From Paracoccaceae bacterium (GTDB lineage: Bacteria > Pseudomonadota > Alphaproteobacteria > Rhodobacterales > Rhodobacteraceae): a stretch of DNA of 64,000 bases. Of the stretch, positions 17,857-54,431 are shown in pieces. The first letter of the stretch is position 1; each line of letters begins with the position of its first letter. The position numbers were made by a program, and so were the translations under genes. The DNA is taken from contig JAFWNM010000010.1 in NCBI GenBank assembly GCA_017510335.1, positions 1 to 64,000 on the forward strand. Reading direction: 5' to 3'. The notes under the pieces are model-generated. The model was not told where the DNA came from, did not search any database, and was given only the letters and a program-made list of their open reading frames with translations.

Positions 17857-17868
17857 CGCCGACATCGT

Positions 17869-32581: not shown

Positions 32582-32585
32582 ACGC

Positions 32586-35015: not shown

Positions 35016-36043
35016 AGATCGACTTTCATACGCTGTATCTGAAAAAACGCTTCCCCTTGCGGATTTCACGCGGTGAAATTCTGGGCGGGGAAAACCTGTT
35101 TATCAGCGTCAGTGACGGCACGCTGACCGGATGGGGCGAAATGGCCCCGGGCGACACAGAAGGGGCCGCAACCGTGGCAGAGGGGCGCGCGCAACTGGAA
35201 GGATTTTGCGCAGGCGGGCTGGACGGGGCCATTCATGACATCTGGGCGCGCGCGCATGCGGGCGGTGTGGGGGCCTGCGCCCTGGCGGCGCTGGACATGG
35301 CCCTGTGGGATTTGCGCGCCAAACAGGCGAATATGCCGCTTTACAAGCTGTTGGGGCTGGCGCGGCGGGGGGTGGTTTCGTCGTTGACAGTGGGTATCAA
35401 CCCGCCAGAAGTGGTGTTTGAACGTGTGCCCCTGTTGCTGGCGCGCGGGGCGCGTGCGCTGAAAGTCAAACTGGGCAGCAGGGACGGCATTGACGCGGAC
35501 AAGGCCATGTTCACGGCAGTCCATGACGCGGCAGCAGGCAGCGGCGCGGCGTTGCGGGTGGACGCCAATGGCGGCTGGTCGCTGCGCGATGCGCGCCACA
35601 TGATGGACTGGCTGGCCAAGCGCGGCGTGGAATATGTGGAACAACCCCTTGTTCAGGGCGCTGAGGACCAGCTGCCCGACCTGTTCCAGTCCCGCGCCCT
35701 GCCGATATTTGTGGATGAATCCTGCCGCTTTTCCACAGACATTCCTGCATTCGCGCATTGCGTGGACGGGGTAAACCTGAAGCTGATGAAAGCAGGCGGT
35801 ATTACCGAAGCGCTGCGCATTGTCGCCACTGCCCGCGCGCATGGGCTGAAAACCATGATCGGGTGCATGGGCGAAAGCGCGGTCGCGATTGCGGCTGGCG
35901 CATCACTATCGGCGCTGTTTGACTATATCGACCTTGATTCACACCTTAATCTTGATCCCGACCCGGCCAGCGGCGCGCCCTTCATAGATGGTGTGACCCT
36001 GCCCGCAGACCGGCCCGGCCACGGAGGATGCCTGAATGCTTGA
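35012..36043 (+). CDS. dgcA: N-acetyl-D-amino acid racemase DgcA-like, enolase superfamily
   Basis: This 343-residue member of the enolase superfamily (dipeptide epimerase/muconate cycloisomerase subgroup) has the KxK base pair in ALKVKLGS, metal ligands in RVDANGGW, YVEQPL and FVDES, and the opposite Lys in NLKLMKAGG. Next to a DUF1611 gene this is the DgcA arrangement, known from marine bacteria that convert N-acetyl-D-glutamate to N-acetyl-L-glutamate. Dipeptide epimerase activity remains an alternative. It overlaps its neighbours on both sides. Confidence 0.8.
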   Translation: MKIDFHTLYLKKRFPLRISRGEILGGENLFISVSDGTLTGWGEMAPGDTEGAATVAEGRAQLEGFCAGGLDGAIHDIWARAHAGGVGACALAALDMALWDLRAKQANMPLYKLLGLARRGVVSSLTVGINPPEVVFERVPLLLARGARALKVKLGSRDGIDADKAMFTAVHDAAAGSGAALRVDANGGWSLRDARHMMDWLAKRGVEYVEQPLVQGAEDQLPDLFQSRALPIFVDESCRFSTDIPAFAHCVDGVNLKLMKAGGITEALRIVATARAHGLKTMIGCMGESAVAIAAGASLSALFDYIDLDSHLNLDPDPASGAPFIDGVTLPADRPGHGGCLNA

Positions 36044-37076
36044 CCCCACACACCCCATCGCGTTGTTTGCCGAAGCGACCATGGGCAGCCTGAACGCCAA
36101 AATGGCCGAAGGCATATTGCGCTATGGGCGCAATCCGGTGGTGGCGGTGATCGACAGCACGCAGGCGGGCAAGCGTGTTCGCGACCTGTGTGCGCTGGAC
36201 AGCGATGTGCCGGTTGTGGCCACGCTGGCCCACGCGCAGGCCCTTGGCGCGTCCGTGCTGGTTCTGGGCACGGCCCCGTCAGGCGGGCGCCTGCCCGTCG
36301 CGTGGAAGGGCGTCTTGCAACAGGCCATCGACGACGGGATGAACCTTGTCAACGGCATGCATGACCGCCTTCAGCCGCTGTTTGCCGACAGGTTGCGCGC
36401 CGGTCAATGGGTCTGGGATTTGCGCGTGCCCCAAGGCGACGCGCCCCCCATCGCCATGGCGCGTGCGGCGGCGCTGGACAATATTCGCGTGCTGATGGTG
36501 GGCACGGATATGGCGATTGGCAAAATGACCGCAGGGCTGGAACTGACGCGCAGCTTGCAATCCTTGGGTCATGATGCCGCGTTTCTGGCCACGGGGCAAA
36601 CGGGTATTGCCATCACGGGCCGCGGCATTCCGCTGGACGCCATCCGTGTGGACCATGCAGGCGGCGCAGTGGAACGCATGGTGCTGGACGCTGGCGGGCA
36701 TGAAATTGTCGTGGTCGAGGGGCAAGGTTCGCTTCTGCATCCGGGCAGCACGGCCACCTTGCCGCTGATGCGCGGCAGCGCCTGCACCCATATGGTGCTG
36801 TGCCACCGGGCGGGCATGGAAACACTGGACGAACTGGACAGCGTCCGCATTCCGCCCCTGCGCGATGTCATTGCCCTGAATGAAGCCGTGGCGCGCGCAG
36901 GCGGCGCGCTGACTGCGGCCAAAGTGGTGGCCATCGCGCTGAACACTGCGCGCCTGTCCGAAGCCGAAGCCCGCGCAGCACTTGACGCGGTCGAGGATGA
37001 AACAGGACTGCCAACCACCGATCCAGTGCGCCATGGGGCTAGCAAACTGGCGCTGGCAGTGACGGGCGGGCGCTAG
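36036..37076 (+). CDS. dgcN: N-acetyltransferase DgcN-like (DUF1611)
   Basis: This 346-residue DUF1611 protein has an N-terminal Rossmann-like half and a C-terminal P-loop-type domain starting near VLMVGTDMAIGKMTAGLEL (about 153-171). In D-glutamate degradation of marine bacteria, DgcN acetylates the D-amino acid before DgcA racemises it. It is the last gene of the operon; a perfect hairpin and a dispersed repeat follow. Confidence 0.8.
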   Translation: MLDPTHPIALFAEATMGSLNAKMAEGILRYGRNPVVAVIDSTQAGKRVRDLCALDSDVPVVATLAHAQALGASVLVLGTAPSGGRLPVAWKGVLQQAIDDGMNLVNGMHDRLQPLFADRLRAGQWVWDLRVPQGDAPPIAMARAAALDNIRVLMVGTDMAIGKMTAGLELTRSLQSLGHDAAFLATGQTGIAITGRGIPLDAIRVDHAGGAVERMVLDAGGHEIVVVEGQGSLLHPGSTATLPLMRGSACTHMVLCHRAGMETLDELDSVRIPPLRDVIALNEAVARAGGALTAAKVVAIALNTARLSEAEARAALDAVEDETGLPTTDPVRHGASKLALAVTGGR

Positions 37077-37082
37077 CGCGTC

Positions 37083-37113
37083 ATGCGCAAAACCGGATGC
37101 CGGTTTTGCGCAT
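37083..37113 (+). terminator. Perfect 14-bp inverted repeat after the amine operon
   Basis: ATGCGCAAAACCGG (37083-37096) is exactly mirrored by CCGGTTTTGCGCAT (37100-37113) with a 3-nt loop, seven bases after the dgcN stop. No T run follows. It probably ends or protects the long rightward transcript. Confidence 0.65.
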
Positions 37114-37178
37114 ATAAACACGCGACCACAAGCAGTTTGAATGGGCCGCGTGCATACCGGTGAACGCGGCGCACCCTA

Positions 37179-37282
37179 GTGCATGTCGCGTTCATTCGTA
37201 TTCACGCGACATGCTCTAACTTATTGGCTTTGCATGTTCGAGGAGCTCAAAACCGGTTCCCACTTTTGAGCAACATGCTCTA
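37179..37282 (+). repeat. Dispersed ~104-bp palindromic repeat, copy 2
   Basis: This is the best-preserved rightward copy. The left half is a hairpin with arms GCATGTCGCG and CGCGACATGC around a TTCATTCGTATTCA-type centre; the right half ends GTTCCCACTTTTGAGCAACATGCTCTA. The last three bases (37280-37282) are the TAG stop codon of the leftward TRAP large-permease gene, as in copy 1 with the DUF1178 gene. Confidence 0.85.
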
Positions 37283-38575
37283 AAGATAGGGAAGCCAAAG
37301 AACCAGCATGGGAAAGGCGATCAGCAGCGCGACATGCAAGATATCTGCCCCCACGAAGGGCAAGGCGCCACGGAAAATCTTGTTTAACGGCACATCCCGT
37401 GCAACGCCTGACAGGATATAAACATTCATGCCGACCGGCGGCGTGATCAAGGCAATCTCGGTCATGCGCACCACAAGGACACCGAACAAAACGGCATCGA
37501 ACCCCATATTCGTGACCAGCGGGAAAAACAGTGGCACTGTCAGGGTCATCATCGCGGATGCGTCAAGAACCATGCCCAGCACAAAATAGACGACCAGTAT
37601 CAACAGCAGAACAGTCATGGGGGCAAAGCCGCTATTGCTGACAAAATCGACAATATGAAGCGGTATGCGGGTGACTGTGATAAAACTGTTGAACACCAGC
37701 GCGCCAAACAGGATGCCGAAGATCATACCTGTCGTTTTGACGGTTGCATAGATTGCCGTGCGCGCGGTTGCCCATGTCAGACGGCCACGCGCCGCCGTAA
37801 TGACAATGGCCCCGAACGCGCCCACAGCCCCGGCTTCGGTGGGGGTAAACCAGCCCAGAATGATCCCGCCCATCACAAGGCCAAACAGAAAAATCACTTC
37901 GCCGGTTGTCTTGAAGCTGCGCAGTTTTTCGCGGAAGGTATATTTCGGCCCACGGGGGCCAGCGTCAGGGTTGATGCGGCAGATTATGGCAATCGTGATA
38001 ATGTAGAACACCGCCAGCAGGATGCCGGGAATGATACCGGCGGCAAACATCGCCCCGATGGATGTTTCTGTCAGAATCCCGTAGATAATGAACATGCCCG
38101 ATGGCGGGATCAGCGCGCCGATGGTGCCGCCCGCGACCACGCTGCCAGATGCCAGCGACAGATCATATTTATGTTTGCGCATTTCGGGCATGGCAACCAG
38201 ACCCATGGTTGCCGTTGTCGCCAGACTGGACGCGCTGACCGATGCAAACCCTGCTGACGCCCCGATCGTTGCCATCGCCAGCCCGCCACGCCTGCGGCCA
38301 ATCCATTTTGCCGCGAATTCATACATGTCCTTGCCGATGCCGGATGCGAACATCAGATGCGCCATGAACAGGAATAGCGGAATGGTCCCGATAGCGTGGT
38401 TGGTGACAATCCCATAAGTTGTCACCCCGATCCGCACCACAGCCGCATCGAAACTGATGATCGCGGCAAAACCGGCAAACCCCACCAGCCCCATTGCAAA
38501 CCCGATCGGCATTCCCGCCGCTATAAGGGCGAAGACCACAGCAAGCCCCATAAATCCGATAGCGACAGTGCTCAT
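37280..38575 (-). CDS. TRAP transporter large permease
   Basis: This 431-residue DctM-type permease has a dozen or more hydrophobic segments and the conserved blocks AMGLVGFAGF, GRRRGGLAMATIGASAGFASVSASSLATTATMG and LIPPSGMFIIYGILTE. It moves a small organic anion with sodium using the DctP receptor. Its start overlaps the small-permease stop (ATGA). Its stop codon is supplied by repeat copy 2, so the C-terminus may have been set by the element. It is the last gene of the operon that begins at 43661. Confidence 0.93.
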   Translation of the reverse strand: MSTVAIGFMGLAVVFALIAAGMPIGFAMGLVGFAGFAAIISFDAAVVRIGVTTYGIVTNHAIGTIPLFLFMAHLMFASGIGKDMYEFAAKWIGRRRGGLAMATIGASAGFASVSASSLATTATMGLVAMPEMRKHKYDLSLASGSVVAGGTIGALIPPSGMFIIYGILTETSIGAMFAAGIIPGILLAVFYIITIAIICRINPDAGPRGPKYTFREKLRSFKTTGEVIFLFGLVMGGIILGWFTPTEAGAVGAFGAIVITAARGRLTWATARTAIYATVKTTGMIFGILFGALVFNSFITVTRIPLHIVDFVSNSGFAPMTVLLLILVVYFVLGMVLDASAMMTLTVPLFFPLVTNMGFDAVLFGVLVVRMTEIALITPPVGMNVYILSGVARDVPLNKIFRGALPFVGADILHVALLIAFPMLVLWLPYL

Positions 38576-39093
38576 AGTTTGTTTTCCAGTTTTTCGGGGG
38601 TATTGATGCTGTCATCATGTCCGAACAAAAGCTGGACAACCTTGAACAGCAGCGTCACGCAGATCAGGATCATGGCGGCAGCCATCATCCACCTGAAGGG
38701 CGCAATCGGAATATTGATGATGGGCGATGTTTCGCCCTGCGCGCCACGCCGGATGGCTTCGCGTATCGTTGCCAATGCAACGGCCATCCAGAACAGCGAC
38801 CCCAAACCAAGCATCAGCCCCTTCAGCGTCAGGCGAAACCGCCGGTGGTGCAGCCGGTCTACAAAAAGCGACACGCCGGTATGTTCGTTTTGCATCGTCG
38901 CATAAGCCAGCGCAAAGCTGATGGCCGGAATAAGCAACAGTTCCGCAATAACGTAGGTGCCGGGAAAGGCTATTCCGACTGCGCGGAACACGACCGTCAC
39001 CACTGTCAGCATCATAAGGGCCAGAATGCCTGCCACGGCAATCATGCCTGACACACGGCTGAAGAAATCCAGAATGCGCTGACCGTATCGCAT
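38572..39093 (-). CDS. TRAP transporter small permease
   Basis: This DctQ-type protein has about 173 residues from the ATG at 39093, which follows AAGG; two further upstream ATG codons are possible. It has four hydrophobic helices: MIAVAGILALMMLTVV, YVIAELLLIPAISFALAY, GLMLGLGSLFWMAVAL and WMMAAAMILICVTLLF. The EHTGVSLFVDRL loop is typical of the family. It partners the large permease. Confidence 0.9.
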   Translation of the reverse strand: MRYGQRILDFFSRVSGMIAVAGILALMMLTVVTVVFRAVGIAFPGTYVIAELLLIPAISFALAYATMQNEHTGVSLFVDRLHHRRFRLTLKGLMLGLGSLFWMAVALATIREAIRRGAQGETSPIINIPIAPFRWMMAAAMILICVTLLFKVVQLLFGHDDSINTPEKLENKL

Positions 39094-39122
39094 ATATCCA
39101 TACCTTGAGTGTTTGGGAAAGC

Positions 39123-39149
39123 GGGGCATGGCGGGGGCCAGCATGCCCC
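39123..39149 (-). promoter_or_regulatory. Hairpin between dctP and dctQM
   Basis: GGGGCATG (39123-39130) pairs with CATGCCCC (39142-39149) in the 77-bp gap after the TRAP receptor gene. A stable hairpin here fits partial termination or mRNA protection, which would give more receptor than permease, as is common in TRAP operons. Confidence 0.5.
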
Positions 39150-39170
39150 CACCACAGTCACATTGCGGGA

Positions 39171-40178
39171 TCAGTCACGGGGCGCGCGCACGCGTTCCAG
39201 AATTTCCGTTCCCGGCAGGCCAAGTGTGTCCAGCCGCTGGGCGGTGGCGCGGGCGGGTTCTGCGAAAGCGGCCGAATATTCGGTGATCACGCTGTCGTCC
39301 ACGGCGTTGAATGCCACACCCAGTTCCTCGCCATAGGCGCGGCCCGCCTCTTCGGACGCTTGTGCCAGTTCATAGGTCATTGTGGTCAGCCACAGGACGT
39401 TGTCTTCAAAGACCTGTTGAATGTCAGCGGGCAGCCGGGACCAGACAGCACCATTCATACCGCGCGAAGGATAGGCCCCCCGGCTATGGGGCAATTCCGA
39501 GTAATAGCTGATGACTTCGGCAAAGCTGAGGGAACGCAGCGCTTCATATGGCGCGATGACACCGTCCACGACACCACGTTCCAGCGCGGGATAGGTGTCT
39601 GTCATGGGCATGGTCACCCCTTCTGCACCAAAACCGGCCAATGCGCTGACATAGTCAACTGCAGACCGGATACGCAGGCCCTGCAGGTCGCCAAGCTGCT
39701 GGAACGGGCGGTCGCGCAGCATAAGATGCATGGGCGTGCCCACATTGAACCCCAGAACCTTGACGCCGTCCAACTCCTCCTCGAACTGGGGAAATTCGTT
39801 CCATAGGTCCAGATACACATCCAGCACTTCAAGCGCGTCTTCATAGCCATAAAAGAACGATGGCGTGTTGCGCGACAATTCATACCCGGAACTGGCATAG
39901 ATCGGCGCGATATAGGCAAGATCGGCTACCCCTGCCGCCAGTTCGTCAATCCCCTCGCGGCTGGTGATCAGCGACCGCCCCCAGAAGGGTGTAATTTCAA
40001 CACGCCCGTCGGTTTGTTCGTGAATGCGGTCAATCCATGCCTGATCCGCCTCGCCATATGGGTGCGTCGGGCCATAGGGCGACGCATAGGTAAGCCGAAA
40101 TTCCTGGGCAGTTGCCATGCCCAGCCCAAGGATGGTGCAAATTCCACCCACTATTGCAGTTTTCGTCAGGTTCGCCAT
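39171..40178 (-). CDS. TRAP transporter substrate-binding protein
   Basis: This 335-residue DctP-type receptor has a signal peptide ending at MATAQ. The mature part starts EFRLTYASPYGPTHPYG, and the family carboxylate-binding Arg is expected in the DLQGLRIRSAVDY segment. It captures an organic acid in the periplasm. It is encoded 26 bp after a CoA-transferase gene on the same strand, so the imported acid is a plausible substrate for CoA activation. Confidence 0.9.
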   Translation of the reverse strand: MANLTKTAIVGGICTILGLGMATAQEFRLTYASPYGPTHPYGEADQAWIDRIHEQTDGRVEITPFWGRSLITSREGIDELAAGVADLAYIAPIYASSGYELSRNTPSFFYGYEDALEVLDVYLDLWNEFPQFEEELDGVKVLGFNVGTPMHLMLRDRPFQQLGDLQGLRIRSAVDYVSALAGFGAEGVTMPMTDTYPALERGVVDGVIAPYEALRSLSFAEVISYYSELPHSRGAYPSRGMNGAVWSRLPADIQQVFEDNVLWLTTMTYELAQASEEAGRAYGEELGVAFNAVDDSVITEYSAAFAEPARATAQRLDTLGLPGTEILERVRAPRD

Positions 40179-40204
40179 CGTTTCCTCCCGATTTGATGGT
40201 TAGG

Positions 40205-41389
40205 TCAAGTGTCGTCTCCGAACACGCCGGACGCGGTGAGGGCGGTAATTTCATCCACCTTCAGCCCCGCCGCATGCAGGATTTCATCGCGGTTCTGTCC
40301 GGGCAACGGTGCCAGATTGCGAAACTGCGCAGGCGTTCCCGTTAATTTGACCGGCGTTCCGATATGGCGCATCGTTCGCCCTGTGGCGGATTGCACGCGC
40401 AGCACCATCCCGCGCGCCATGTTATGGTCATCGGCAAGCGCATCATGCACGTCATGCACCGCGCTGAACTGGGTTTGGGCGGCGGCAAGCACCTCCAGCC
40501 ATTCATCGCGCGTGCGCGTGGCGAATATGCGTTCCAACTCTGCGCGCAGCGTTGGCCAAGAGTCGACGTCATGCTGCAATTGCGCATATTCCGGCTTTCC
40601 AACCGCATCGCAAAAGCGGCGCCAATAGCGCGGTTCCATATCTGTGGTGACAATGAATTTTCCATCCTTCGTGCGCCATAACCCCATATCCGCGCGGCGC
40701 ATTCCGCGGGGCGGAATGCTGGCAGGGTCAGGATGGCGTGACAGGACGTTTACAAGAAGCGACATGGAACAATCGCTCATGGCGATATCAACATGCTGCC
40801 CATGGCCAGTGCGCGCCCGCGCGGTCAAGGCCGCCAGAATGCCAAAAGCCGCATGCGTTCCCGTGACAATATCGGCAACAGGCACCCCTGCGAAGGACGG
40901 TGCGTCAGGGTTTTCCCCCATCCGCGACAGCGCACCCGACACGGCCAGCGCAACCGGGTCATGGCCGGGTTTGTCGCGGTAAGGGCCGGTCTGCCCGCAT
41001 AAGGTCAGGCTGCAGTAAACCAGCCCCGGATTGACCTGTACAAGGTCGTCAAACCCCAAGCCCAGCCCGGCAAGAACGCCGGGGCGATAGTCCTCGACCA
41101 CGACATCGGCATCGCGCGCCAGTCGTTTGACAAGCGCCTGCGCGTCAGGATTGCCGATATCAAGTTTCATCGATTTCTTGTTGCGCGACAGGATGTCGTT
41201 GTGCCGTATGTCAGCGCGCGCGTCTGCCGACAGGCGGTCCCAGCCAAAAACCTTCGCCTGTTTGTCCAGTTCGCGCGGGTTTTCAAGGCGAATGACCTCC
41301 GCGCCCATGTCGGCAAGCAGCCATGTGCAATACGGCCCCGGCAACAAACGCGAGAAATCCAGCACCTTTATTCCTTGCAGCGCGGTCAT
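40205..41389 (-). CDS. CaiB/BaiF class III CoA-transferase, Asp-containing
   Basis: This 394-residue class III CoA-transferase has the N-terminal motif KVLDFSRLLPGPYCTWLLAD and the catalytic-Asp context GQHVDIAMSDCSM, so the active-site Asp is kept. These homodimers move CoA between carboxylic acids through a mixed-anhydride path. Its start overlaps the preceding CoA-transferase gene (ATGA). Third gene of the operon running from 43661 into the TRAP genes. Confidence 0.88.
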   Translation of the reverse strand: MTALQGIKVLDFSRLLPGPYCTWLLADMGAEVIRLENPRELDKQAKVFGWDRLSADARADIRHNDILSRNKKSMKLDIGNPDAQALVKRLARDADVVVEDYRPGVLAGLGLGFDDLVQVNPGLVYCSLTLCGQTGPYRDKPGHDPVALAVSGALSRMGENPDAPSFAGVPVADIVTGTHAAFGILAALTARARTGHGQHVDIAMSDCSMSLLVNVLSRHPDPASIPPRGMRRADMGLWRTKDGKFIVTTDMEPRYWRRFCDAVGKPEYAQLQHDVDSWPTLRAELERIFATRTRDEWLEVLAAAQTQFSAVHDVHDALADDHNMARGMVLRVQSATGRTMRHIGTPVKLTGTPAQFRNLAPLPGQNRDEILHAAGLKVDEITALTASGVFGDDT

Positions 41390-42483
41390 TCAAACGCCTC
41401 CCAGCCGGGAAAGCTGTTCAGCGTAGCCTTGGGCGACAGCGTCCGAGGGGGGGGCGGGCCGCCTGCGTCATGGCCGAATAATGGCCCCGGCAGGCGTGTT
41501 GTGCCGGTGTCGGAGGTGACTGGAACGAACAGGCCGCGCTGTGCCAGATGGTCACTTTCGCGCACCTCGTCCAGGTTCTGAATGACCGAAAGCCCCCAGC
41601 CCAGTTCAAGCGACCATTGCCCAAGCTGCACCTTTGGGTGGCGTGCAAAGAACGCTTCCAGAATGCTTTGCCAATGGTCGATCACGTCCTGGGGCATGTC
41701 GGCAACCAGAATTGCGGACCAGTCCACCGCCGCCAGTTCGCCTGCCGCGTTGTGTTGTTCCAGAACCTTGACGACTGCGCGCATCATGTTCGGGTTGTCG
41801 ATCATGGACCATGTCACATACCCGTCGGCACAGGGCCAGACCTGACGCACACCCGACTTGCCGCGCACAAGGCGGTTTCCCGTGCGTGTGCCGATCCGGC
41901 CCGTCCATTCATACATGATGGCTTCACGGTAATTCGCCAGGGTTGTGGACTGTAGCGCCGACACATCGACACGCTGCCCCTGTCCGGTGCGGTGGCGTGC
42001 ATGAAGGGCCATCAACCCCGCCGTTGCCACCTGTATTCCTGTCAACGCATAGGCCTGTTCACCGGGAAACCGAAGTGGCGGGCGATCTGGATCGCCGGTA
42101 ATATGCATCAACCCGCTTTGCGCCATCAGCGTCAGGTCCGTGGCCACATGGCCGCTGCGTGGCCCGTCCGCGCTATAGGGGCGCGCGATTACATGGATCA
42201 GGCGGTCGTTTTCCACCAACAGGTTTTCGGGCAAGGCAGGACCGCGTCTGCGGTCATCCAGAAACATATCCGCCCCGGCCAGCACCGGCAAAAGTGACGA
42301 AACATCCTCGGGCCAGCTATAGCGGTGCTTGCCATGGCCCCACGCAAGCTCACGCGCTTGCGTGGACGTGTCCCTGCGCGACACGCTGATGACTGTAGCG
42401 CCCAGTTCCGCCAGCATGCGCCCGCCCAGGTCCACCAGACCGTCCGACAGTTCCAGAACGCGAATTCCCTGAAGCTGGCTCAT
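41386..42483 (-). CDS. CaiB/BaiF CoA-transferase-like protein lacking the catalytic Asp
   Basis: This 365-residue protein of the class III CoA-transferase family starts RVLELSDGLVDLGGRMLAELG. Where active enzymes have Asp in GQxVDVAMxD, this one reads GQRVDVSALQS, with Gln at the aligned position. It is also shorter than its neighbours. It may be a non-catalytic partner of the next-door protein, as in two-subunit enzymes such as benzylsuccinate CoA-transferase. ATGA overlaps at both ends couple it to the two other CoA-transferase genes. Confidence 0.85.
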   Translation of the reverse strand: MSQLQGIRVLELSDGLVDLGGRMLAELGATVISVSRRDTSTQARELAWGHGKHRYSWPEDVSSLLPVLAGADMFLDDRRRGPALPENLLVENDRLIHVIARPYSADGPRSGHVATDLTLMAQSGLMHITGDPDRPPLRFPGEQAYALTGIQVATAGLMALHARHRTGQGQRVDVSALQSTTLANYREAIMYEWTGRIGTRTGNRLVRGKSGVRQVWPCADGYVTWSMIDNPNMMRAVVKVLEQHNAAGELAAVDWSAILVADMPQDVIDHWQSILEAFFARHPKVQLGQWSLELGWGLSVIQNLDEVRESDHLAQRGLFVPVTSDTGTTRLPGPLFGHDAGGPPPPRTLSPKATLNSFPGWEAFE

Positions 42484-43661
42484 GCGATGACCCCTTGTGC
42501 GTGCAGTTCTTCGACATCGCGCGCGGACATTCCCAGCATGTCACAAAACACGTCCTTGTTATGCGCCCCCAGACAGGGGGCGGCGGTGACACATGCAGGG
42601 GTGTGCGAGAATTTCATCGGCGGGGTGGGCATCATGCTTGTGCCCAGAACGGGATGATCCACTGCAACAAAATGGCCAGCCGCGCGCAATTCCGGGTCTT
42701 CAAACACATCGCGCCCGTCCTGCACGGCTGCCGCAGGAACGCCCGCTGCAGCAAGTTCCGCTAGCAACGTGTCGCGGTCCACCACTGCCGTGGCGCGGCC
42801 AAGCGCCTGATCAACGGCATCTGCATGTGTGACGCGGTCCTGTGCTGTGTCGAACACCGGGTCGGGGGCGATGCGCAGCACGGCGCAAATGCTGCGCCAC
42901 TGCGCATCTGTTTCGGTAGCGATTGCGATCCATTTTTCATGACCGGCGCAGGGATAGACACCATGCGGTGACATCACGGGGTCCGAATTCCCCGTTTTGC
43001 GGGCCTGTGGTGCGGCAAACAGGTCGGCAATGACATGAACCATCGGCTCAATCTGCGAAATGTCCAGATGCTGGCCCTTGCCCGTCCGCTGGCGGTATTC
43101 CAGCGCCGACAACACAGCCACAGTGGCAAACATGGGCGCAACGACATCGCCATAGGCAAGTGGCGGCATGTGTGGGGGGCGGTCCGGCCAGCCCGACAGC
43201 GCGGCATGCCCAGAATGGGCGGCGGCAGAATTGCCATACCCGCGAAACCCCGCCATGGGGCCACTGCGCCCCGCAACCGACACACTGGCCAGAATGATAT
43301 CCGGCTTGATCTGGCGCAGGGTATCATAGCCAAGCCCGATGCGTTCCATATAGCCGGGGCCGAAGTTTTCCACCACGACATCGGCCCACAGGACAAGCTG
43401 ACGCGCCAGTTCCACCCCGCGCGGGTCCGACAGGTTCAGCGTCACACTTTTCTTCGATGTGTTGGATTGCGCGAAAAAGGCCGAGCCGTCATGGTCAGTA
43501 GACTTGCCTGCAAAAGGTGGCGAACGCCGCCCCAGATCAAGCCTGCGCGCAGACTCGATCTTGATGACCATGGCCCCGTTATCGGCCAGGTCCATTGTCG
43601 CCCTTGGTCCGGCACCGACCCAACTGAAGTCAGCTATCTTTACACCTTCTAGTGCGCGCAT
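42480..43661 (-). CDS. CaiB/BaiF CoA-transferase, Glu at the active position
   Basis: This 393-residue class III CoA-transferase starts at the ATG at 43661 after GGGGGAAAC. The N-terminal fold motif is KIADFSWVGAGPRATMDLADNG. At the catalytic position it reads GQHLDISQIEPMV, with Glu for Asp. It is the first gene of a six-gene leftward operon (three CoA-transferases, then TRAP PQM), and a palindromic operator lies 30 bp before the start. Confidence 0.85.
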   Translation of the reverse strand: MRALEGVKIADFSWVGAGPRATMDLADNGAMVIKIESARRLDLGRRSPPFAGKSTDHDGSAFFAQSNTSKKSVTLNLSDPRGVELARQLVLWADVVVENFGPGYMERIGLGYDTLRQIKPDIILASVSVAGRSGPMAGFRGYGNSAAAHSGHAALSGWPDRPPHMPPLAYGDVVAPMFATVAVLSALEYRQRTGKGQHLDISQIEPMVHVIADLFAAPQARKTGNSDPVMSPHGVYPCAGHEKWIAIATETDAQWRSICAVLRIAPDPVFDTAQDRVTHADAVDQALGRATAVVDRDTLLAELAAAGVPAAAVQDGRDVFEDPELRAAGHFVAVDHPVLGTSMMPTPPMKFSHTPACVTAAPCLGAHNKDVFCDMLGMSARDVEELHAQGVIA

Positions 43662-43690
43662 GTTTCCCCCAAGCAACCTGGTCCCTTAAC

Positions 43691-43707
43691 GGTTCATCAT
43701 ATGAACT
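43691..43707. promoter_or_regulatory. Putative MarR operator, site A
   Basis: GGTTCATCATATGAACT contains GTTCAT-CAT-ATGAAC, a perfect 6-bp inverted repeat. It lies 30 bp before the start of the first CoA-transferase gene, between that gene and the dehydratase-like gene. Two further copies lie at 46109 and 46781. Confidence 0.7.
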
Positions 43708-43719
43708 ATTCAGAGCAAT

Positions 43720-44976
43720 TCAACTTATTCCGTCCAGCGCCTTGCCGACATGGGCTTGCATGTCCGCGCGGTTCCAATCGCGCCGGTCCACCATGTCCGA
43801 CCAGATTTCAATGACCTTCACACCCGCCGCTTCCAGTGCGCGGCGCGCAAATCCCGACCCATAGCCCGAAAACCGGTCATGGCGTGGCACCAGCATCACG
43901 GCGGCATCGATCCGGTAGCGCCGCGCCTGTTCAACCAGCCATTCATTCACCCAAGGCGGTTGATGCAACTGTTCATTCATCAATGACATGCGTGCGGCCA
44001 GCGCGCGCAACGGGTCATCCCCGATTTTGCGAATATACCCGTCCGAGGCAAATGGCAGATACATGGACCACACAAACACCGCCCCGTGGCTGTCCTCGAA
44101 TGCCGAATAGAAATCCGTATCAAACCAAAGCCCTGCCCCGATCCACATCATGCGGATGCGTTCATTCGGGCACACGGCCTGCCCGTTTGCAACCCGGTCC
44201 GCCACTTCGTCCCGAAAGGTTGCGGCATGCGCCAAAGCCCAGTCAGACCCTCGGTGCCATTGTGGCACCATGACATTCGGGATTTGCTCGGAAATGCGCA
44301 AAGGCGCTTTGGGCGCTTGCGCGATCATCTGATCGACATGTTCGAAGATCGATTCCTGCCGGTTTATAGCGTGCATATACTGCGCGAATTCATCCATGTC
44401 GAAACGTCTGCCTGTCATCTTTTCTAGTGTCGTGATCAGGGTTTTCATTTCCTCGACCATCAGATCCAGCCGGTCCGGGTGATACAGCTGTTCCCAATTG
44501 TCGCGCGCCAGTTCCCACCAACGCGGTTCAGGGTCAGCCACGCCCGGCGCACTGAACAGGTGCAACGGTGCCCCCGTCGCTTTCGCCCATAGGGCAAATA
44601 CCTTCTGATGTTCATCAGAACTCTGGCGTGCGCACAGAATGGACGGGGTGGGCAAACCGCCCCAAGGCTGGCGCGACGGGTCGTTATCCAGTGCGGCAAT
44701 CAGCGGCAGGCTGGAATAGCGCGGAAGATGGGGGTGAAACCCCATTTCTGTTGCACGGTCCAGATAATGCTCGGACAATTGCTTGGCAGCGATCACCGCA
44801 GACCACCATTGGTTGGTGACAATAGGCATGCCCATTGCGTGGAACAGTTCATGCGGCGTATCTGCGTTGACGAAGGCAAATTTCTCGCCGCCGGTAATAT
44901 CCTCGCGCAGCTGGCGCACCCAGTCGCGCTGATAGCTCATCGCGGCCGCAGTCGCGTTCAGTGGCGTATAGCTCAT
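43720..44976 (-). CDS. 2-hydroxyacyl-CoA dehydratase-like subunit, larger
   Basis: This 418-residue protein resembles the HgdB/BcrB/FldB subunit family of 2-hydroxyacyl-CoA dehydratases and benzoyl-CoA reductases. Family-like parts are ADTPHELFHAMGMPIVTNQWW near the N-terminus, SILCARQSSDEHQKVFALW, and the C-terminal YRIDAAVMLVPRHDRFSGYGSGFARRALEAAGVKVIEIWSD. I count only two Cys residues, fewer than the three that usually hold the [4Fe-4S] cluster. I start it at the ATG at 44976, overlapping the upstream gene. Known members need an ATPase activator, and none is nearby. Confidence 0.7.
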   Translation of the reverse strand: MSYTPLNATAAAMSYQRDWVRQLREDITGGEKFAFVNADTPHELFHAMGMPIVTNQWWSAVIAAKQLSEHYLDRATEMGFHPHLPRYSSLPLIAALDNDPSRQPWGGLPTPSILCARQSSDEHQKVFALWAKATGAPLHLFSAPGVADPEPRWWELARDNWEQLYHPDRLDLMVEEMKTLITTLEKMTGRRFDMDEFAQYMHAINRQESIFEHVDQMIAQAPKAPLRISEQIPNVMVPQWHRGSDWALAHAATFRDEVADRVANGQAVCPNERIRMMWIGAGLWFDTDFYSAFEDSHGAVFVWSMYLPFASDGYIRKIGDDPLRALAARMSLMNEQLHQPPWVNEWLVEQARRYRIDAAVMLVPRHDRFSGYGSGFARRALEAAGVKVIEIWSDMVDRRDWNRADMQAHVGKALDGIS

Positions 44977-46088
44977 ACCAGCCCCCGCTGTTTCAGGTCT
45001 GTTCGCAGAACCGTGTCCAGCACAGCCAGGCTTTGGTCTGTGGGAACAGGGTCCACGAAACCCAGGTTCACAAGCGCGATGCCTGCATCGTTCAGACGCC
45101 GCGTAATATGTGGCACGTCCCAACCAAACACATCATCATGCGGATGAAGCTGACAGATGACCGCATCGCATTTCGCGGCCAGCAAGCGGTCTATCAGGGT
45201 GTCGGTGTAGGCATCGGGGGGAACAAGCCTTTGGCAATCCCTATCGGATGCGGCTGCCTTCAAAATGGCATCAGGCGTCGGGTGATCAGGCAAATCCACC
45301 GGCCAGGCGGCAACCAAAGGCTGCATGTCGCAGATGACCGCACCGTAGGAGTCGATCATGTCATACAGGGCAGTATGCGTAATGGCCGCCCCAATCAAGC
45401 CCAAGCGCGGCGCGGCGCGGGGGGCTTGCGCGACGGGTGCAAGGGCCGCGCGCAGCAGGTCTGCGTGCTGTCCCCCTGCCATCCACCGCCCTGCCACACG
45501 CCACGTCATCGCTGTGCCTGCGCGAACAGGTGCATTCGTGGCGCGAAGACACTCTGTCAGGTCCTCAAGCGCCTGTGCGCGCGCCACTTCGTCCTGAAAG
45601 GCCCGTGAAAGGGCATCAGGTGTAGGCGGTGCGCTGCCCAGATGCTGCCATAGCGTTTCCAACTGCCGCATGTTGAATTCATGCGCATGGGGCGCATGGA
45701 CCAGGTTCCACAAGACCAGTTTGGGTGTGGCCGGCGCCAGGCCAAGGCGCCGCAGTTCAAGTGCGTATTGATACGCGACCAGCGCGGCCGTATCGTCGCG
45801 GCAAAAGATAATTGCCCGCAGGTCATTGAAACAGCCGCATGCGAAACGGTGCAGGAAGCGCTGCACGGCATGGTCGACGAAGGGTTCGATGCACTGGGAC
45901 ACATTATGCCCGGCATCGACAATGTCCTCCTGCGGCAGGATATGCAGGCATGTGACCGGCGCACCAGTGGCATGCAAAAGAATTTCGGGGAACCCTTCGC
46001 CGAATATGCCGATCATATCTTTCGAAAGCACTGTGCCGCGCAAGGCAAAGGCATTTTCCAGCAGGTTGGCCGCATCATCAGACGTCAC
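44973..46088 (-). CDS. 2-hydroxyacyl-CoA dehydratase-like subunit, smaller
   Basis: This 371-residue companion of the preceding protein is also of the HgdB/BcrC type. The family pattern is seen in GFPEILLHATGAPVTCLHILPQ, QCIEPFVDH, AIIFCRDDTAALVAYQYALELRRLG and the C-terminal KCDAVICQLHPHDDVFGWDVP. It has about ten Cys residues, enough for a cluster. It is first in its transcript; a palindromic operator lies 20 bp before its ATG, and the regulator gene is divergent. The reaction is inferred to be dehydration of a 2-hydroxyacyl-CoA. Confidence 0.68.
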   Translation of the reverse strand: MTSDDAANLLENAFALRGTVLSKDMIGIFGEGFPEILLHATGAPVTCLHILPQEDIVDAGHNVSQCIEPFVDHAVQRFLHRFACGCFNDLRAIIFCRDDTAALVAYQYALELRRLGLAPATPKLVLWNLVHAPHAHEFNMRQLETLWQHLGSAPPTPDALSRAFQDEVARAQALEDLTECLRATNAPVRAGTAMTWRVAGRWMAGGQHADLLRAALAPVAQAPRAAPRLGLIGAAITHTALYDMIDSYGAVICDMQPLVAAWPVDLPDHPTPDAILKAAASDRDCQRLVPPDAYTDTLIDRLLAAKCDAVICQLHPHDDVFGWDVPHITRRLNDAGIALVNLGFVDPVPTDQSLAVLDTVLRTDLKQRGLV

Positions 46089-46108
46089 GTCGCACCCTTT
46101 CCCATATT

Positions 46109-46125
46109 AGTTCATTTAGTGAACT
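46109..46125. promoter_or_regulatory. Putative MarR operator, site B
   Basis: AGTTCATTTAGTGAACT forms an inverted repeat with AGTTCA and TGAACT arms, matching sites A and C. It lies in the divergent gap, 20 bp before the dehydratase-like gene and 90 bp before the MarR gene, so it could control both. Confidence 0.72.
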
Positions 46126-46215
46126 GTTAATGGTGCATGTGTCAATCCCCTTTTCTGCCTTTGACAGCGGGGCCGCCCTTTCTATAGGTTCAATGAAAAC
46201 CCGAGAGAGGCCTCA

Positions 46216-46740
46216 ATGACCGAACACGAAGGCGCAGACCCGTCCTGTGTCGATTCAATAAACCTTGGCCATTTACGCGAAAACCTGCCGTTCCTGTCGC
46301 GCACGATACGGGCTTTCATCCGCGCCGAGAATGCCGAGCATTTTGGCGATATGAACACCGAACACGGGGAAATTGCGACCCTTAGCCTGATCCGCGAGAA
46401 TGAAGGCATTTCGCAAAACGATCTTGCCCAATACATTGTTTTGAAAAAATCTGCTGTTGCCAGCCTGATCAAGACCCTTGAAAAACGCGGGCTGGTGCAG
46501 CGGCGCAAGGTTCTGAGCGACCGGCGCTACAATGCGCTTTCGCTGACACCGGCGGGGTTGGCATGGCATGATCAGCTGATGCAACGGATGGACGCACAGC
46601 ATAAGGCCATGCTTGGCCCGTTCAGTGCAGATGATCGCGCCGCGCTGCTGGATTTGCTGAACCGGCTTCATCTGCACCTTGCGGCACGGTCATCACAGCG
46701 CACCGCCCCATCGCCCCAGCGCATGACGCAAAAGGACTAA
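46216..46740 (+). CDS. MarR family regulator of the CoA-transferase cluster
   Basis: This 174-residue MarR protein has an N-terminal dimer helix, a winged HTH with SQNDLAQYIVLKKSAVASLIKTLEKRGLVQRRK, and the wing DRRYNALSLTPAGLAW. It sits between the divergent dehydratase and CoA-transferase transcription units, and three matching palindromes flank the cluster. A CoA ester or the imported acid is the likely signal, as in other MarR regulators of aromatic-acid pathways; that is inference. Confidence 0.87.
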   Translation: MTEHEGADPSCVDSINLGHLRENLPFLSRTIRAFIRAENAEHFGDMNTEHGEIATLSLIRENEGISQNDLAQYIVLKKSAVASLIKTLEKRGLVQRRKVLSDRRYNALSLTPAGLAWHDQLMQRMDAQHKAMLGPFSADDRAALLDLLNRLHLHLAARSSQRTAPSPQRMTQKD

Positions 46741-46780
46741 TCGCGCATATCGGCTGGAAACTTGACCCTGCCCCACATAA

Positions 46781-46797
46781 AGTTCATAATATGAACT
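46781..46797. promoter_or_regulatory. Putative MarR operator, site C
   Basis: AGTTCATAATATGAACT has perfect 7-bp arms AGTTCAT and ATGAACT around AAT. It lies 40 bp after the MarR stop and 20 bp before the CoA-transferase start at 46818. Confidence 0.75.
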
Positions 46798-46817
46798 AAT
46801 TTATATGGAGGGTCATC

Positions 46818-48008
46818 ATGGGGCAGCCACTTGCCGGTATGCGTGTCGCGGATTTTTCGCATGTGATTGCAGGCCCGCTTGCAACACATTTCCTGCGCCT
46901 GATGGGGGCAGAAGTCATCAAGGTGGAACCGCCAACAGGGGATGTGCTGCGCAACTACACCCAACGGCAGGAACTGCGCGGAATGGCCGAACCGTTTATC
47001 GGCGTGAATGCCGGAAAGAAATCCCTGGTTCTGGACCTGAAGTCGGAGTTCGGGCAGGAAGCCGCACGGCGGTTGATCGCAACAAGCGACGTGATGATCG
47101 AGAATTTCCGCCCCGGTGTTATTGACAGGCTGGGACTGGGCCATGCGCGCGTCATGAAAGACAACCCGTCCCTGATTTATTGTTCGGTGTCGGGATACGG
47201 GCAAGACGGGCCGATGCGCGACCATCCCGCAATCGACCAGATTATTCAAAGTGTGTCCGGCCTGATGACCCTTTCAGGCGAAGACGGTGCGTCGCCCATG
47301 CGAATCGGTTTTCCGGTTGTTGACACCTACAGTGCGCTGATGACGGCGTTTGCAGTGCAATCCGCCTTGCTTCAGCGTGAACGTGACCCGCAAAAGCAAG
47401 GGCAATATGTCGATGTGGCCATGCTTGACGCGTCGCTGGTGATGATGGCGTCTGTGGTCTATCCGTTGCTGATTTCCGGTCTGGCCCCTGTTCGCACTGG
47501 AAACCGCGGCTTTTCCCTGGCCCCGACTGCGGACACGTTTCCAACACGCGATCAGCCGATCACAATCGGGGCTGTTCAGCAAAACCAGTTCGAACGGCTT
47601 TGTGCTGTGCTTGGGCTTGACGGGCTGGTGCATGACCCGCGGTTCAAGGATTCTGATACGCGCATTGCCAATGACGACGCGCTACAAGCAGAACTGCGCA
47701 GCGCATTTGCCCAATATGATGCTGTGGAATGTGAAGCCCTGCTGGCCAGGGCGGGCGTGCCCGCTGGCGCCGTGCGGCAGGTTTCCGAAGCGCTGGCCCT
47801 GGACCAGCTGAAAGGGCGCAACCTGGCCCTTGATGTGCCAACCCCCAATCCGCATGTGCCCATGGCAAAGATCCTGAACGCCGGTTTCCAGTTCGCGCAT
47901 GACGGCCCCGGCCATGATGCCCCCCCGCCTGCCCTGGGCGAACATTCCGCCGAAATACTGGCGGAACTGGGCATGACTGACCCGCTGCCCAGTCAGCCGG
48001 TTGCATGA
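46818..48008 (+). CDS. CaiB/BaiF class III CoA-transferase, rightward unit
   Basis: This 396-residue class III CoA-transferase has the N-terminal motif RVADFSHVIAGPLATHFLRLMGAEVIKVE. The active-site Asp is kept in GQYVDVAMLDASL. The C-terminal part is complete. It follows MarR site C by 20 bp and GGAGG by seven bases. It ends 35 bp before the convergent enhancer-binding-protein gene. It is the only cluster member on this strand besides the regulator. Confidence 0.9.
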   Translation: MGQPLAGMRVADFSHVIAGPLATHFLRLMGAEVIKVEPPTGDVLRNYTQRQELRGMAEPFIGVNAGKKSLVLDLKSEFGQEAARRLIATSDVMIENFRPGVIDRLGLGHARVMKDNPSLIYCSVSGYGQDGPMRDHPAIDQIIQSVSGLMTLSGEDGASPMRIGFPVVDTYSALMTAFAVQSALLQRERDPQKQGQYVDVAMLDASLVMMASVVYPLLISGLAPVRTGNRGFSLAPTADTFPTRDQPITIGAVQQNQFERLCAVLGLDGLVHDPRFKDSDTRIANDDALQAELRSAFAQYDAVECEALLARAGVPAGAVRQVSEALALDQLKGRNLALDVPTPNPHVPMAKILNAGFQFAHDGPGHDAPPPALGEHSAEILAELGMTDPLPSQPVA

Positions 48009-48043: not shown

Positions 48044-49927
48044 TCACTGCGGGTCATTCGCCATGTCGGGGCCTAGCCATTCGTCAGGCTGGATGCGCAG
48101 CTTCTTGATGCGTGAATATAAGGTGGTCGGTTGCAGGCCCAGCAGATGGGCCGCGCCATCCTCGCCCGCGACCTTGCCTTGGGTCATGCGCAGGGCATTG
48201 ACAAGATTGGCACGCCACACCGACGACAATTCCGCTTCCGTCATCACAACTGCAGTGATTGCCCCTGTCGGGGACGGTCGATGCGCAAGATCCACTTGCA
48301 GTTTTCCACCGGTCGAAATGATTGCGCCGCGGTCAATCACGTTCTGGAGTTCGCGCACATTGCCGGGCCATTCATAGCGGATCAGCTTCTCCATGGAATG
48401 GCGCGAAATGCTTGGCGGTTTCATGTTCAGACGTTTGCACGCCAGCGCCAGAAAATGCGTGGCAAGCGCGGGAATATCTTCTGGCCGTTTGCGCAGCGGC
48501 ACGCATTCGATCGGAAAGACATTCAGATACATATGCAATTCCTGACGAAACTCGCCCCGGCGGGCAAGCGTGTCCAGCGATCTGCGGCTGGCGGCAATAA
48601 CACGCAGGTTGATTGCGCGCGCCCGCGTGTCACCCAGCCGCGTGACGCTGCCTTCTTGCAGCGCATACAGCAGGCGTCCTTGCAGCCCCAAGGGCAATTC
48701 ATCGACATCATCCAGAAACAACGTGCCGTTATGGGCCAGTTCCAGCATCCCCGGCTTATCGCGCAACGCCCCCGGAAACGCACCGCGAATCTGGCCAAAC
48801 AGTTCTGCCTCTATGGCGTCGGTGGTGACAGCGCTGCATTTGAAATGAATCAGCGATCTGCGGCGGCGTGAACTGCCCTTATGGATGGCGGATGCGACCA
48901 GCGCCTTGCCGGTTCCGGCCTCGCCGGTGATCAGCACATTCGCTTCGGTCGCGGCCACCAGGTCGATCTTGCTTAGAATTTGCAAAATGGCCGGGGACGC
49001 ACCGATAATGTCGTGATGCGCGCGTTCAGACGCGATGGTTTCCTGCAAATAGGCGTTTTCCTGTTCCAGTTGTTCGCGCAGTTCCTGCACCTGTTGCATG
49101 GCATCGCGCAATTTCCGTTCATTTTCCTTGCGTTCGGTAATGTCGCGGAAAATGACCACGGCCCCCGCCAGAACATTCTGATCATAGATCGGGGTCGATA
49201 CATATTCGACGCGAATGGGCTTGCCATCCTTGCGCCAGAAAACTTCGTCTTCGATGCGGTTGACCTGTTCGAAGCGGAACGACTGATAGATCGGGCAGTC
49301 ATGGGCCGGGTATGCGTCACCATTCAGGTGATGGTGATGAATCATCGTATGGATGTCACGGCCAAGCAGGTCTTCGGCACTCCAGCCCAGCATCTCGCGC
49401 GCGGCGCGGTTGACGAATGTGGTCTTGCCATCAGCGTTGACCCCGTAAATCCCCTCGCCTGCGGCGTTCAGGATAAGCTGGTTCTGACGTTCCAGTTCGT
49501 TGAAGAAATCCTGTGCGCGCTGCCATTCCAGCAGGCCAAGGCGCTGCAACTCGCTGGCTTCGGCGATCTGGTCATGGCGCGACATTTCATTCAGGTCGAT
49601 CAGCGTCAACATGACCTGATGGGAAACATCAGCTATCACTGTGCCGCGCAATTCACAGGTCAGCGGGTGTTTCGCATTGTCCTGCAGCGGAATGTCACGC
49701 CGCCACGCCTGACCGCGATGGCCAAGTTCATCCAGAAACACCAGAAACTGGCCAAAATTTCCGGCAATATGCGGGGCAAACCGGAAATCCGCCTTGCCCC
49801 CCTGTCCAAGGAAGCGGCGCGCGCGGGAATTGGCGGCCAGAACCCTGTCCCGTGCGGTGTCCAGAACAAGGGTCGGGTGGGGGAAAGCGTCCAGCAGGGA
49901 ATCAGGCGTCATCTGGTTCAGGGTCAT
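48044..49927 (-). CDS. PAS-containing sigma-54-type enhancer-binding protein with GAFPGA loop
   Basis: This 627-residue regulator has a divergent N-terminal PAS-like part (about 10-125), a second PAS domain (about 165-275) carrying the HHHHLNGDAYPAHDCPIY motif, a coiled-coil linker, an AAA+ domain (about 310-545) and a C-terminal HTH (about 580-615, LLGLQPTTLYSRIKKLRI). The Walker A is GEAGTGKA and the Walker B region LFLDDVDELPL. The sigma-54 contact loop reads ELFGQIRGAFPGA, with Pro385 in place of the Thr of GAFTGA. It is divergent from the cyanate operon, whose leader has a sigma-54-type promoter and tandem palindromes. Confidence 0.88.
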   Translation of the reverse strand: MTLNQMTPDSLLDAFPHPTLVLDTARDRVLAANSRARRFLGQGGKADFRFAPHIAGNFGQFLVFLDELGHRGQAWRRDIPLQDNAKHPLTCELRGTVIADVSHQVMLTLIDLNEMSRHDQIAEASELQRLGLLEWQRAQDFFNELERQNQLILNAAGEGIYGVNADGKTTFVNRAAREMLGWSAEDLLGRDIHTMIHHHHLNGDAYPAHDCPIYQSFRFEQVNRIEDEVFWRKDGKPIRVEYVSTPIYDQNVLAGAVVIFRDITERKENERKLRDAMQQVQELREQLEQENAYLQETIASERAHHDIIGASPAILQILSKIDLVAATEANVLITGEAGTGKALVASAIHKGSSRRRRSLIHFKCSAVTTDAIEAELFGQIRGAFPGALRDKPGMLELAHNGTLFLDDVDELPLGLQGRLLYALQEGSVTRLGDTRARAINLRVIAASRRSLDTLARRGEFRQELHMYLNVFPIECVPLRKRPEDIPALATHFLALACKRLNMKPPSISRHSMEKLIRYEWPGNVRELQNVIDRGAIISTGGKLQVDLAHRPSPTGAITAVVMTEAELSSVWRANLVNALRMTQGKVAGEDGAAHLLGLQPTTLYSRIKKLRIQPDEWLGPDMANDPQ

Positions 49928-49961
49928 GCCCTACCCTGCCGCCAGCATGTGTGCAGCACAA

Positions 49962-49992
49962 TACGAAAAATCGTAATTTACGAAAAGTCGTA
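49962..49992. promoter_or_regulatory. Tandem palindromes, likely enhancer sites
   Basis: TACGAAAAATCGTA (49962-49975) and TACGAAAAGTCGTA (49979-49992) are two palindromes with TACGA/TCGTA arms, spaced 17 bp start to start. They lie 58-88 bp before a sigma-54-like promoter and 35 bp before the start of the divergent enhancer-binding-protein gene, the standard place for its binding sites. Confidence 0.75.
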
Positions 49993-50049
49993 TTTCCAAT
50001 CGCAGCCAAGAACGCACAACATACTGAAAATAAATATTTTATTAAAAAA

Positions 50050-50065
50050 CGGCACGCTTGGTGCT
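50050..50065 (+). promoter_or_regulatory. Sigma-54 (-24/-12) promoter of the cyanate operon
   Basis: CGGCACGCTTGGTGCT matches TGGCACG-N4-TTGCW at 9 of the 12 specified or degenerate positions if scored strictly, with the invariant GG and GC elements at correct spacing. An AT-rich tract precedes it (50025-50049), suitable for DNA bending. Transcription would begin near 50077, about 55 bp before the binding-protein start. Confidence 0.7.
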
Positions 50066-50132
50066 TTTTTGTCTTCTGCGCTGCAGAATTGCTACTGTGG
50101 TTTCAGGATCATCAACCTGCATAGGGGAAGCC

Positions 50133-51509: not shown

Positions 51510-51512
51510 GCC

Positions 51513-54027: not shown

Positions 54028-54431
54028 CTGCAATTCCTTTCGGGCGTTGCTGGGTCTTGCCCGTCCGCGCATTTGACCCAAGACCGAACGACACTGCCAT
54101 CGGGGCCAAAACGCGGGCGCGGGCAGCATAAACAGGACCCCGTTTTGGGGTTCAGCTTTCCACAAAGCGACACGACAAGCCCCTGCCACGCAGCGCAAAA
54201 CAGGGCTTTCCGGCCAGGGCAATGCGCGTTCACGCACCGACCAACCCCACCCGCATGCGTTTGCTAAACCGAAGACCCCTTTTGGTTAAAAAAAGCTTGC
54301 GGGACGCGAGGATTCGGGTGATCCTGATACGCAGTGGCAAGTCTATTTTAATGCTGCATAGAATTTTGCCACACAAGCCGAGAGATTTTTCTACTCTTCT
54401 TCGTTATTTTATTTTGATTAAGGAATTTCCC
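54028..54431. other. Intergenic leader of the large surface protein gene
   Basis: This gap of about 400 bp holds no gene I can support. The left half is G+C-rich. The right half, from about 54270, turns T/A-rich (GGTTAAAAAAAGC; the T-rich tract 54385-54420) and should hold the promoter of the 996-residue protein. No repeat or operator was identified. Confidence 0.4.

Follow-up and report, generated by a model that had tools for sequence, protein, structure and literature searches.

A benzoyl-CoA reductase/2-hydroxyacyl-CoA dehydratase-family dimer lacking the aligned iron-sulfur ligands in a predicted MarR regulon for acid uptake and CoA transfer

The window examined here is a 64,000-nt stretch of DNA from a Paracoccaceae bacterium (GCA_017510335.1, contig JAFWNM010000010.1, positions 1-64,000; the draft genome comprises 3.6 Mb). 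Between positions 37280 and 48008 it carries genes for a TRAP transporter (M, Q and P), four class III coenzyme A (CoA)-transferases (coaT4, coaT5, coaT6 and coaT10), two HGD-D proteins that we call A and B, and a MarR-family regulator, all of which score above their Pfam cut-offs. By sequence, A and B belong to the superfamily of benzoyl-CoA reductases and 2-hydroxyacyl-CoA dehydratases (BCR/HAD), but in this pair six of the six aligned ligand cysteines are replaced. Because the iron-sulfur ligands of the anaerobic relatives are gone, the pair probably works otherwise than these oxygen-sensitive enzymes. We favour, with moderate confidence, the view that the locus is a regulon for acid uptake and CoA activation in which a BCR/HAD-derived dimer would perform redox-neutral, oxygen-tolerant and ATP-independent acyl-CoA chemistry.

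The same gene set had been listed in an earlier note on this DNA, and the profile scores bear out every member of it. The features are given below, with start codons taken at ATG 43661 for coaT6 (our own reading of the sequence), GTG 46088 for hgdA (the gene for A) and ATG 46818 for coaT10.

37280..38575, minus strand: TRAP large permease (DctM); PF06808, 5e-87; TIGR00786 above cut-off
38572..39144, minus strand: TRAP small permease (DctQ); PF04290, 1.5e-13
39171..40178, minus strand: TRAP solute-binding protein (DctP); PF03480, 4e-30; nearest solved receptors 4n6d, 4pgn and 4nap
40205..41389, minus strand: coaT4, class III CoA-transferase; PF02515, 2e-98; Asp aligned at the presumed FRC-type catalytic position
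41386..42483, minus strand: coaT5, BbsE-like class III CoA-transferase subunit; best solved match 9fn0_A, 1e-16; without the Asp
42480..43661, minus strand: coaT6, BbsF-like class III CoA-transferase subunit; best solved match 9fn0_B, 1.7e-76; with the Asp
43691..43707, no strand: predicted operator palindrome before the coaT6-coaT5-coaT4-TRAP unit; one mismatch
43720..44976, minus strand: HGD-D subunit B (HadB/BzdO-like; P85, S120 and D367 by ligand mapping); PF06050, 5e-44
44973..46088, minus strand: HGD-D subunit A, hgdA (HadC/BzdN-like; D72, D99 and D318); PF06050, 1.2e-14
46109..46125, no strand: predicted operator palindrome between hgdA and marR; one mismatch relative to the fully symmetric form
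46216..46740, plus strand: MarR-family regulator; PF01047, 1e-12
46781..46797, no strand: predicted operator palindrome before coaT10; exact
46818..48008, plus strand: coaT10, class III CoA-transferase; PF02515, 9e-112; homologues in sphingomonad clusters

The likely start of the B gene is the ATG at 44976, which forms an ATGA overlap with the stop codon of the upstream gene A and yields a protein of 418 rather than 467 amino acids.

The two HGD-D products score 151.8 and 55.1 bits against PF06050, whose cut-off is 28.4 bits. Among solved chains, the best profile matches of B are MbdO, BzdO and HadB and those of A are BzdN and HadC, and both proteins also match the double-cubane protein DCCP. 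The profile alignments of B with HadB and of A with HadC run near full length. Having passed the PF06050 cut-off, the products at 43720 and 44973 lie within the superfamily in which the earlier note had placed them. Some other genomes of the host family encode higher-scoring HGD-D proteins, at about 170-250 bits.

Relatives of the module were collected by a scan of species genomes that found 178 stretches encoding B relatives. The best 80 of these, together with loci from host-family genomes and plasmid records, and minus the window, the canonical locus L061 and seven same-genome duplicates, give 87 non-redundant loci. The alignment of B holds 95 rows, including the window and the seven duplicates. 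The census of B cysteines uses 85 complete non-duplicate rows that include the window and leave out three partial rows and L061. Some rows for canonical proteins proved to be translated in a wrong frame and were excluded.

According to one paper (PMC11971306), the cluster ligands of BzdO are Cys95, Cys128 and Cys380, with the same coordination in HadB; Glu65 and His131 flank the cluster-bound water, and the thioester oxygen receives hydrogen bonds from Tyr97, Tyr298 and Gln274. In our alignments, BzdO Cys95/128/380 and HadB Cys84/117/346 fall on P85, S120 and D367 of window B, and HadC Cys72/99/325, which are counted as ligands by position, fall on D72, D99 and D318 of window A. The catalytic Glu of HadB, Glu55, is replaced by Gln56 in window B, and Gln occupies this column in 87 of the 95 B rows. 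BzdO Glu65 lies two residues ahead of the printed alignment, and its position was assigned by counting back. The two thioester tyrosines are retained: BzdO Tyr97 aligns with Y87, which is Tyr in 92 of 95 rows and gapped in the other three, and Tyr298 aligns with Y306, which is Tyr in all 95.

B has 50 invariant columns, many of them W, H, R or E, across 52 sequences that are 44-70% identical to window B. An HExxH motif (H42-E43-x-x-H46) is present in 80 of the 85 complete rows. In A, Asp predominates at the positions of the lost cysteines: of 85 rows, 47 have it at 72, 57 at 99 and 71 at 318, and position 318 is D or E in 84. The ligand cysteine triad of A occurs in none of the 85 rows other than that of L061.

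Profile searching found no HgdC-type activase in the host genome; its one PF01869 match adjoins a SIS-domain gene and, in our own reading, looks like a sugar kinase. Eight of 12 other module-bearing genomes have some PF01869 match (six above cut-off), and four have none at an E-value of 0.001 (Novosphingobium ovatum, Sphingosinicella CPCC 101087, Maritimibacter alkaliphilus and Wenxinia marina). The two deltaproteobacterial metagenome-assembled genomes (MAGs), those of loci L116 and L117, carry nine and ten PF01869 matches, and in the L116 genome none of these is close to B. The A cluster is the entry point for electrons in BCR/HAD enzymes. ATP-driven electron feeding is therefore unlikely across the clade, because the aligned A cluster ligands are gone even in L115 and L117, where B retains cysteines.

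The B proteins of the clade fall into a series with respect to these cysteines. A four-cysteine set, C85/C88/C120/C122 (CxxC/CxC), is found in 39 of the 85 complete rows, and 45 of 85 have none of these residues. L115 carries the four-cysteine set plus C367. L117 is the exception to the all-or-none pattern, with C85, C88, C120 and C367 and thus three of the CxxC/CxC four. The sphingomonad-type B proteins (L057, L058, L060, L123 and similar loci) have the four-cysteine set, which is perhaps a zinc site or a remodelled iron-sulfur site.

With a very distant outgroup included, a quick tree of 39 rows separates those that are cysteine-free into two supported groups without resolving their mutual relation. 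A more careful tree of 33 rows, built without an outgroup, unites them in one group that needs one change (support 85/69, not starred; 83% of 200 bootstrap trees). The simplest reading of the B sequences is a single loss, because the careful tree needs one change and the outgroup rows have ligand cysteines; the idea of loss in at least two clades, taken from the quick tree, was dropped. The concerted change of the cysteine positions is compatible with one metal or iron-sulfur site, but it is weak evidence for such a site because it represents only one event.

The three transcription units also appear to share their control. The palindrome AGTTCAT-N3-ATGAACT stands 29, 20 and 20 bp 5' of the start codons of coaT6, hgdA and coaT10, respectively, which agrees with the earlier note's report of a palindrome 20-30 bp before each unit. 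Outside the window, the host genome holds one further one-mismatch site, C40:53768, which lies within a 158-aa open reading frame (ORF) or at its start; by our own estimate this is about the chance expectation for 3.6 Mb. Two-mismatch sites are found at five additional places. With up to two mismatches allowed, the operator recurs in 20 of 41 MarR-bearing loci, the window counted, where it stands before A in 17, at the MarR-coaT10 junction in 12 and at the junction of B with the next CoA-transferase in 12. By comparison, 199 scrambled palindromes gave a mean of 0.015 and a maximum of one of 41 loci. This count leaves out L058 and the same-genome duplicates L045, L048, L049, L050 and L051, of which L049 and L051 have sites. 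Operators occupy equivalent junctions in other Rhodobacterales and Rhizobiales, including Aquamicrobium, Devosia, Pelagibacterium, Nitratireductor and Chelativorans.

No operator with up to two mismatches was found in the other 21 of the 41 loci. Visual inspection of ten of these showed a different palindrome, of GTTTC..GAAAC type, in several, and a poorer copy of the main operator in L105 and L110. Because the operator is common to the three units and is kept at the same junctions elsewhere, as judged against the scrambled controls, there is good evidence that the units form one MarR regulon with a predicted operator. Like the known TRAP and MarR regulons of aromatic or organic acids, the module combines P, Q and M genes with a MarR gene and a palindromic operator, but its MarR protein falls far under the cut-off of every named NCBIfam family. 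The best of these is the Saro_0803 family (63.7 bits, cut-off 200), a match too weak to be used as a clue to the substrate.

The transferases and the transporter hint at the kind of acid involved. Among solved structures, coaT5 and coaT6 are matched best by the two different subunits of benzylsuccinate CoA-transferase (9fn0_A and 9fn0_B), to which we apply the names BbsE and BbsF on the assumption that they correspond. As in BbsEF, one of the two unlike subunits lacks and the other has an Asp at the catalytic position; only coaT6 of this pair carries it, and we take the aligned Asp of coaT4 and coaT6 to be the FRC-type catalytic residue. The module differs from BbsEF in having two further CoA-transferases and, in sphingomonads, in the fusion of the T5-like and T6-like parts into one protein. 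No other bbs-like genes were found among the module neighbours scanned. The TRAP set is complete, with DctP, DctQ and DctM all in the window, and the receptors 4pgn and 4nap presumably bind indole-type aromatic acids.

Based on these features, we propose that the TRAP transporter would import a carboxylic acid, perhaps a bulky or aromatic one, and that a BbsEF-like heterodimer of coaT5 and coaT6, together with coaT10 and coaT4, would swap CoA between a donor and the imported acid. The A/B dimer, as a descendant of the BCR/2-hydroxyacyl-CoA dehydratase catalytic dimer, would bind the acyl-CoA by means of the conserved tyrosines that hold the thioester and may then catalyse, by acid/base chemistry, a redox-neutral step such as that of a hydro-lyase, lyase or isomerase, with no ketyl-radical dehydration. 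MarR would be freed from its operators by the acid or by its CoA ester.

The dehydration suggested in the earlier note would, in its canonical form, make the pair a true 2-hydroxyacyl-CoA dehydratase, which removes water by means of an ATP-activated ketyl radical. Both proteins do exceed the PF06050 cut-off, and they adjoin a CoA-transferase and a transporter as in fermentative pathways. However, the ligand cysteines are absent from the window pair, Gln stands at the HadB Glu55 position, and no HgdC-like activase was found in the host genome and no activase-family match in four of the 12 other module-bearing genomes. We therefore reject the canonical form of this reading on ligands and activase, and judge radical dehydration by A/B to be very improbable. 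What stands from that interpretation is import, CoA transfer, a shared regulon and the superfamily; 2-hydroxyacyl-CoA dehydration in the known sense is not supported, since neither subunit has the aligned iron-sulfur ligands and both the catalytic Glu and an ATP-dependent activase are missing. Nothing found here shows the substrate to be a hydroxy acid. We give equally little credence to an unusual iron-sulfur enzyme that keeps its clusters through other ligands: the CxxC/CxC set of sphingomonad-type B would suit it, but C115 and C269 are the only cysteines of window B, and the commonest cysteine column of A is Cys in only 32 of 86 rows.

The main rival, to which we assign a low probability, is that A/B has no catalytic activity and serves as an acyl-CoA-binding dimer, holding, sensing or channelling a CoA ester between the CoA-transferases. 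The loss of the known catalytic residues, the retention of both thioester tyrosines and the presence of a CoA-transferase near B in 83 of 87 loci would all fit such a role, but the many invariant columns of B seem more than a binding shell needs. It is also rather unlikely that a new metal site, putatively formed by D72/D99/D318 of A or by the HExxH motif of B, replaces the clusters and still activates a hydroxyacyl-CoA for elimination. The prevalence of Asp at the A cluster positions, the near-constant acidic residue at 318 and the wide occurrence of HExxH speak for this possibility. On the other hand, A positions 72 and 99 vary, and HExxH, which L120 and L121 lack, sits on the P-x-E-x helix that is ordinary for this family. 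A bolder scheme that we likewise regard as rather unlikely would have the BCR/HAD dimer rebuilt into an oxygen-tolerant, ATP-independent enzyme of a widespread, mostly aerobic pathway. In this scheme, the A cluster was lost first, the B cluster then became a four-cysteine site that was dropped in one branch, and a new carboxylate or HExxH metal site carries out dehydration or C-C cleavage on a new class of substrates.

Several points weigh against the redox-neutral, cluster-free enzyme that we favour. All three B ligand positions are kept in L115 and L117, the third is kept in the partial row L116, and another 38 complete rows retain two of them inside the CxxC/CxC set; in part of the clade, B may thus still contain a cluster or some other metal. 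BzdO Gln274, which joins the two tyrosines at the thioester oxygen, corresponds to Ala281 in window B. A is poorly conserved (16-57% identity to window A), and its ligand mapping comes from a single profile alignment. The all-or-none cysteine pattern may reflect one event inherited by many rows, and the redox-neutral reaction is deduced from absent features.

The search for the same gene set in other genomes that the earlier note had suggested shows that the module recurs: A, B, a CoA-transferase and P/Q/M genes occur together in 60 of the 87 non-redundant loci. Individually, A is present in 76 loci, the TRAP components M, P and Q in 72, 71 and 59, respectively, and MarR in 41; these counts are likely lower bounds, as the loci are truncated and gene calling relied on a simple script. 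A second DctQ type occurs in 12 of the 87 loci (two of these scanned), and a fused CoA-transferase pair (ORF >550 aa) in 34. The closest named relatives at the locus are from Roseinatronobacter sp. HJB301 and a Rhodobacteraceae MAG, whose B proteins are 86-87% identical. Within the host genus the distribution is patchy, with the B protein in three of 25 genomes, the host included, several of these genomes being incomplete. Many lineages that host the module are aerobic.

Gene order varies among lineages. Many Rhodobacterales and Rhizobiales loci resemble the window, with coaT10 and marR transcribed divergently from the series A, B, T, T, T, P, Q, M (T, CoA-transferase), and many sphingomonad and Steroidobacter loci have the order Q, M, A, TT, B, P, T, where TT is the fused protein with T5-like and T6-like parts. 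Maritimibacter-type loci have A, B, a single CoA-transferase and TRAP genes, followed by two P450 genes. Locus L117, from a deltaproteobacterial MAG, combines A, B, TRAP genes and four CoA-transferases with genes for PGA_cap, MmgE/PrpD and a PFL-like glycyl-radical enzyme; these last three lie 3' of the module at 13848-19590 and may help to find the substrate. In 34 of the 87 loci (L138, L086, L115, L117 and others), PGA_cap-cluster proteins are encoded close to the module, and two of them, when scanned with NCBIfam, match the lasso-peptide epimerase MslH weakly, a hint of an epimerase role. Recurrent neighbours include an S15/CocE-type hydrolase, PGA_cap, P450, MmgE/PrpD, a flavin adenine dinucleotide (FAD) monooxygenase and a TonB receptor, and they do not agree on one substrate. 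These labels rest on scanned representatives, except that the TonB and GntR labels rest on record annotation.

Other features of the window flank the module. The block at 31235-37076 (plus strand) has genes for a class III aminotransferase, a beta-keto acid cleavage enzyme, a histone-deacetylase-fold protein, MR_MLE and DUF1611; the last two are, we presume, reminiscent of the D-glutamate DgcA/DgcN pair. This gene run does not recur as a block next to the module in the other loci compared. The intergenic region at 37080-37280 contains inverted-repeat-like sequence with two copies of CATGCTCTAA and resembles a dispersed repeat. Just beyond the module, at 48044-52346, a gene for a PAS-containing sigma-54 activator adjoins NMT1-type ABC transporter genes, and a large protein with RTX and dockerin-like repeats is encoded at 54222-57422.

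Among known systems, HadBC with its activase HadI is likewise a heterodimer of two HGD-D proteins and also works alongside a class III CoA-transferase, but the window pair differs in lacking the ligand-position cysteines, the catalytic Glu and any activase that we could find. With the class I benzoyl-CoA reductases BzdNO and MbdNO, the pair shares its best solved matches (MbdO and BzdO for B, BzdN for A) and the BzdO thioester tyrosines (PMC11971306). It differs from them in that the equivalents of Cys95/128/380, Gln124 and Gln274 are missing in the window and His131 is not kept clade-wide, and no BzdPQ-type ATPase subunits were found. In the open full-text literature we found no paper on the gene set, most subscription papers being outside this coverage. 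The component families are known; what is new, as far as our searches of that literature go, is a conserved clade of such cluster-free dimers with a regulon of its own. A widespread and apparently undescribed gene set would import an organic acid, attach CoA and pass the product to A/B.

These findings bear on how such proteins are understood. Genome annotation labels the B relatives as members of the 2-hydroxyacyl-CoA dehydratase family, which implies radical dehydration in aerobes, and the sequences say otherwise. In B, the clade forms a series from all ligand positions kept, through the four-cysteine form, to none, at 44-70% identity to window B, which makes the conversion of a radical iron-sulfur fold into a cofactor-poor enzyme testable. 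The module points to a catabolic route, so far uncharacterised, in members of the Rhodobacterales, Rhizobiales and Sphingomonadales and in relatives of Steroidobacter.

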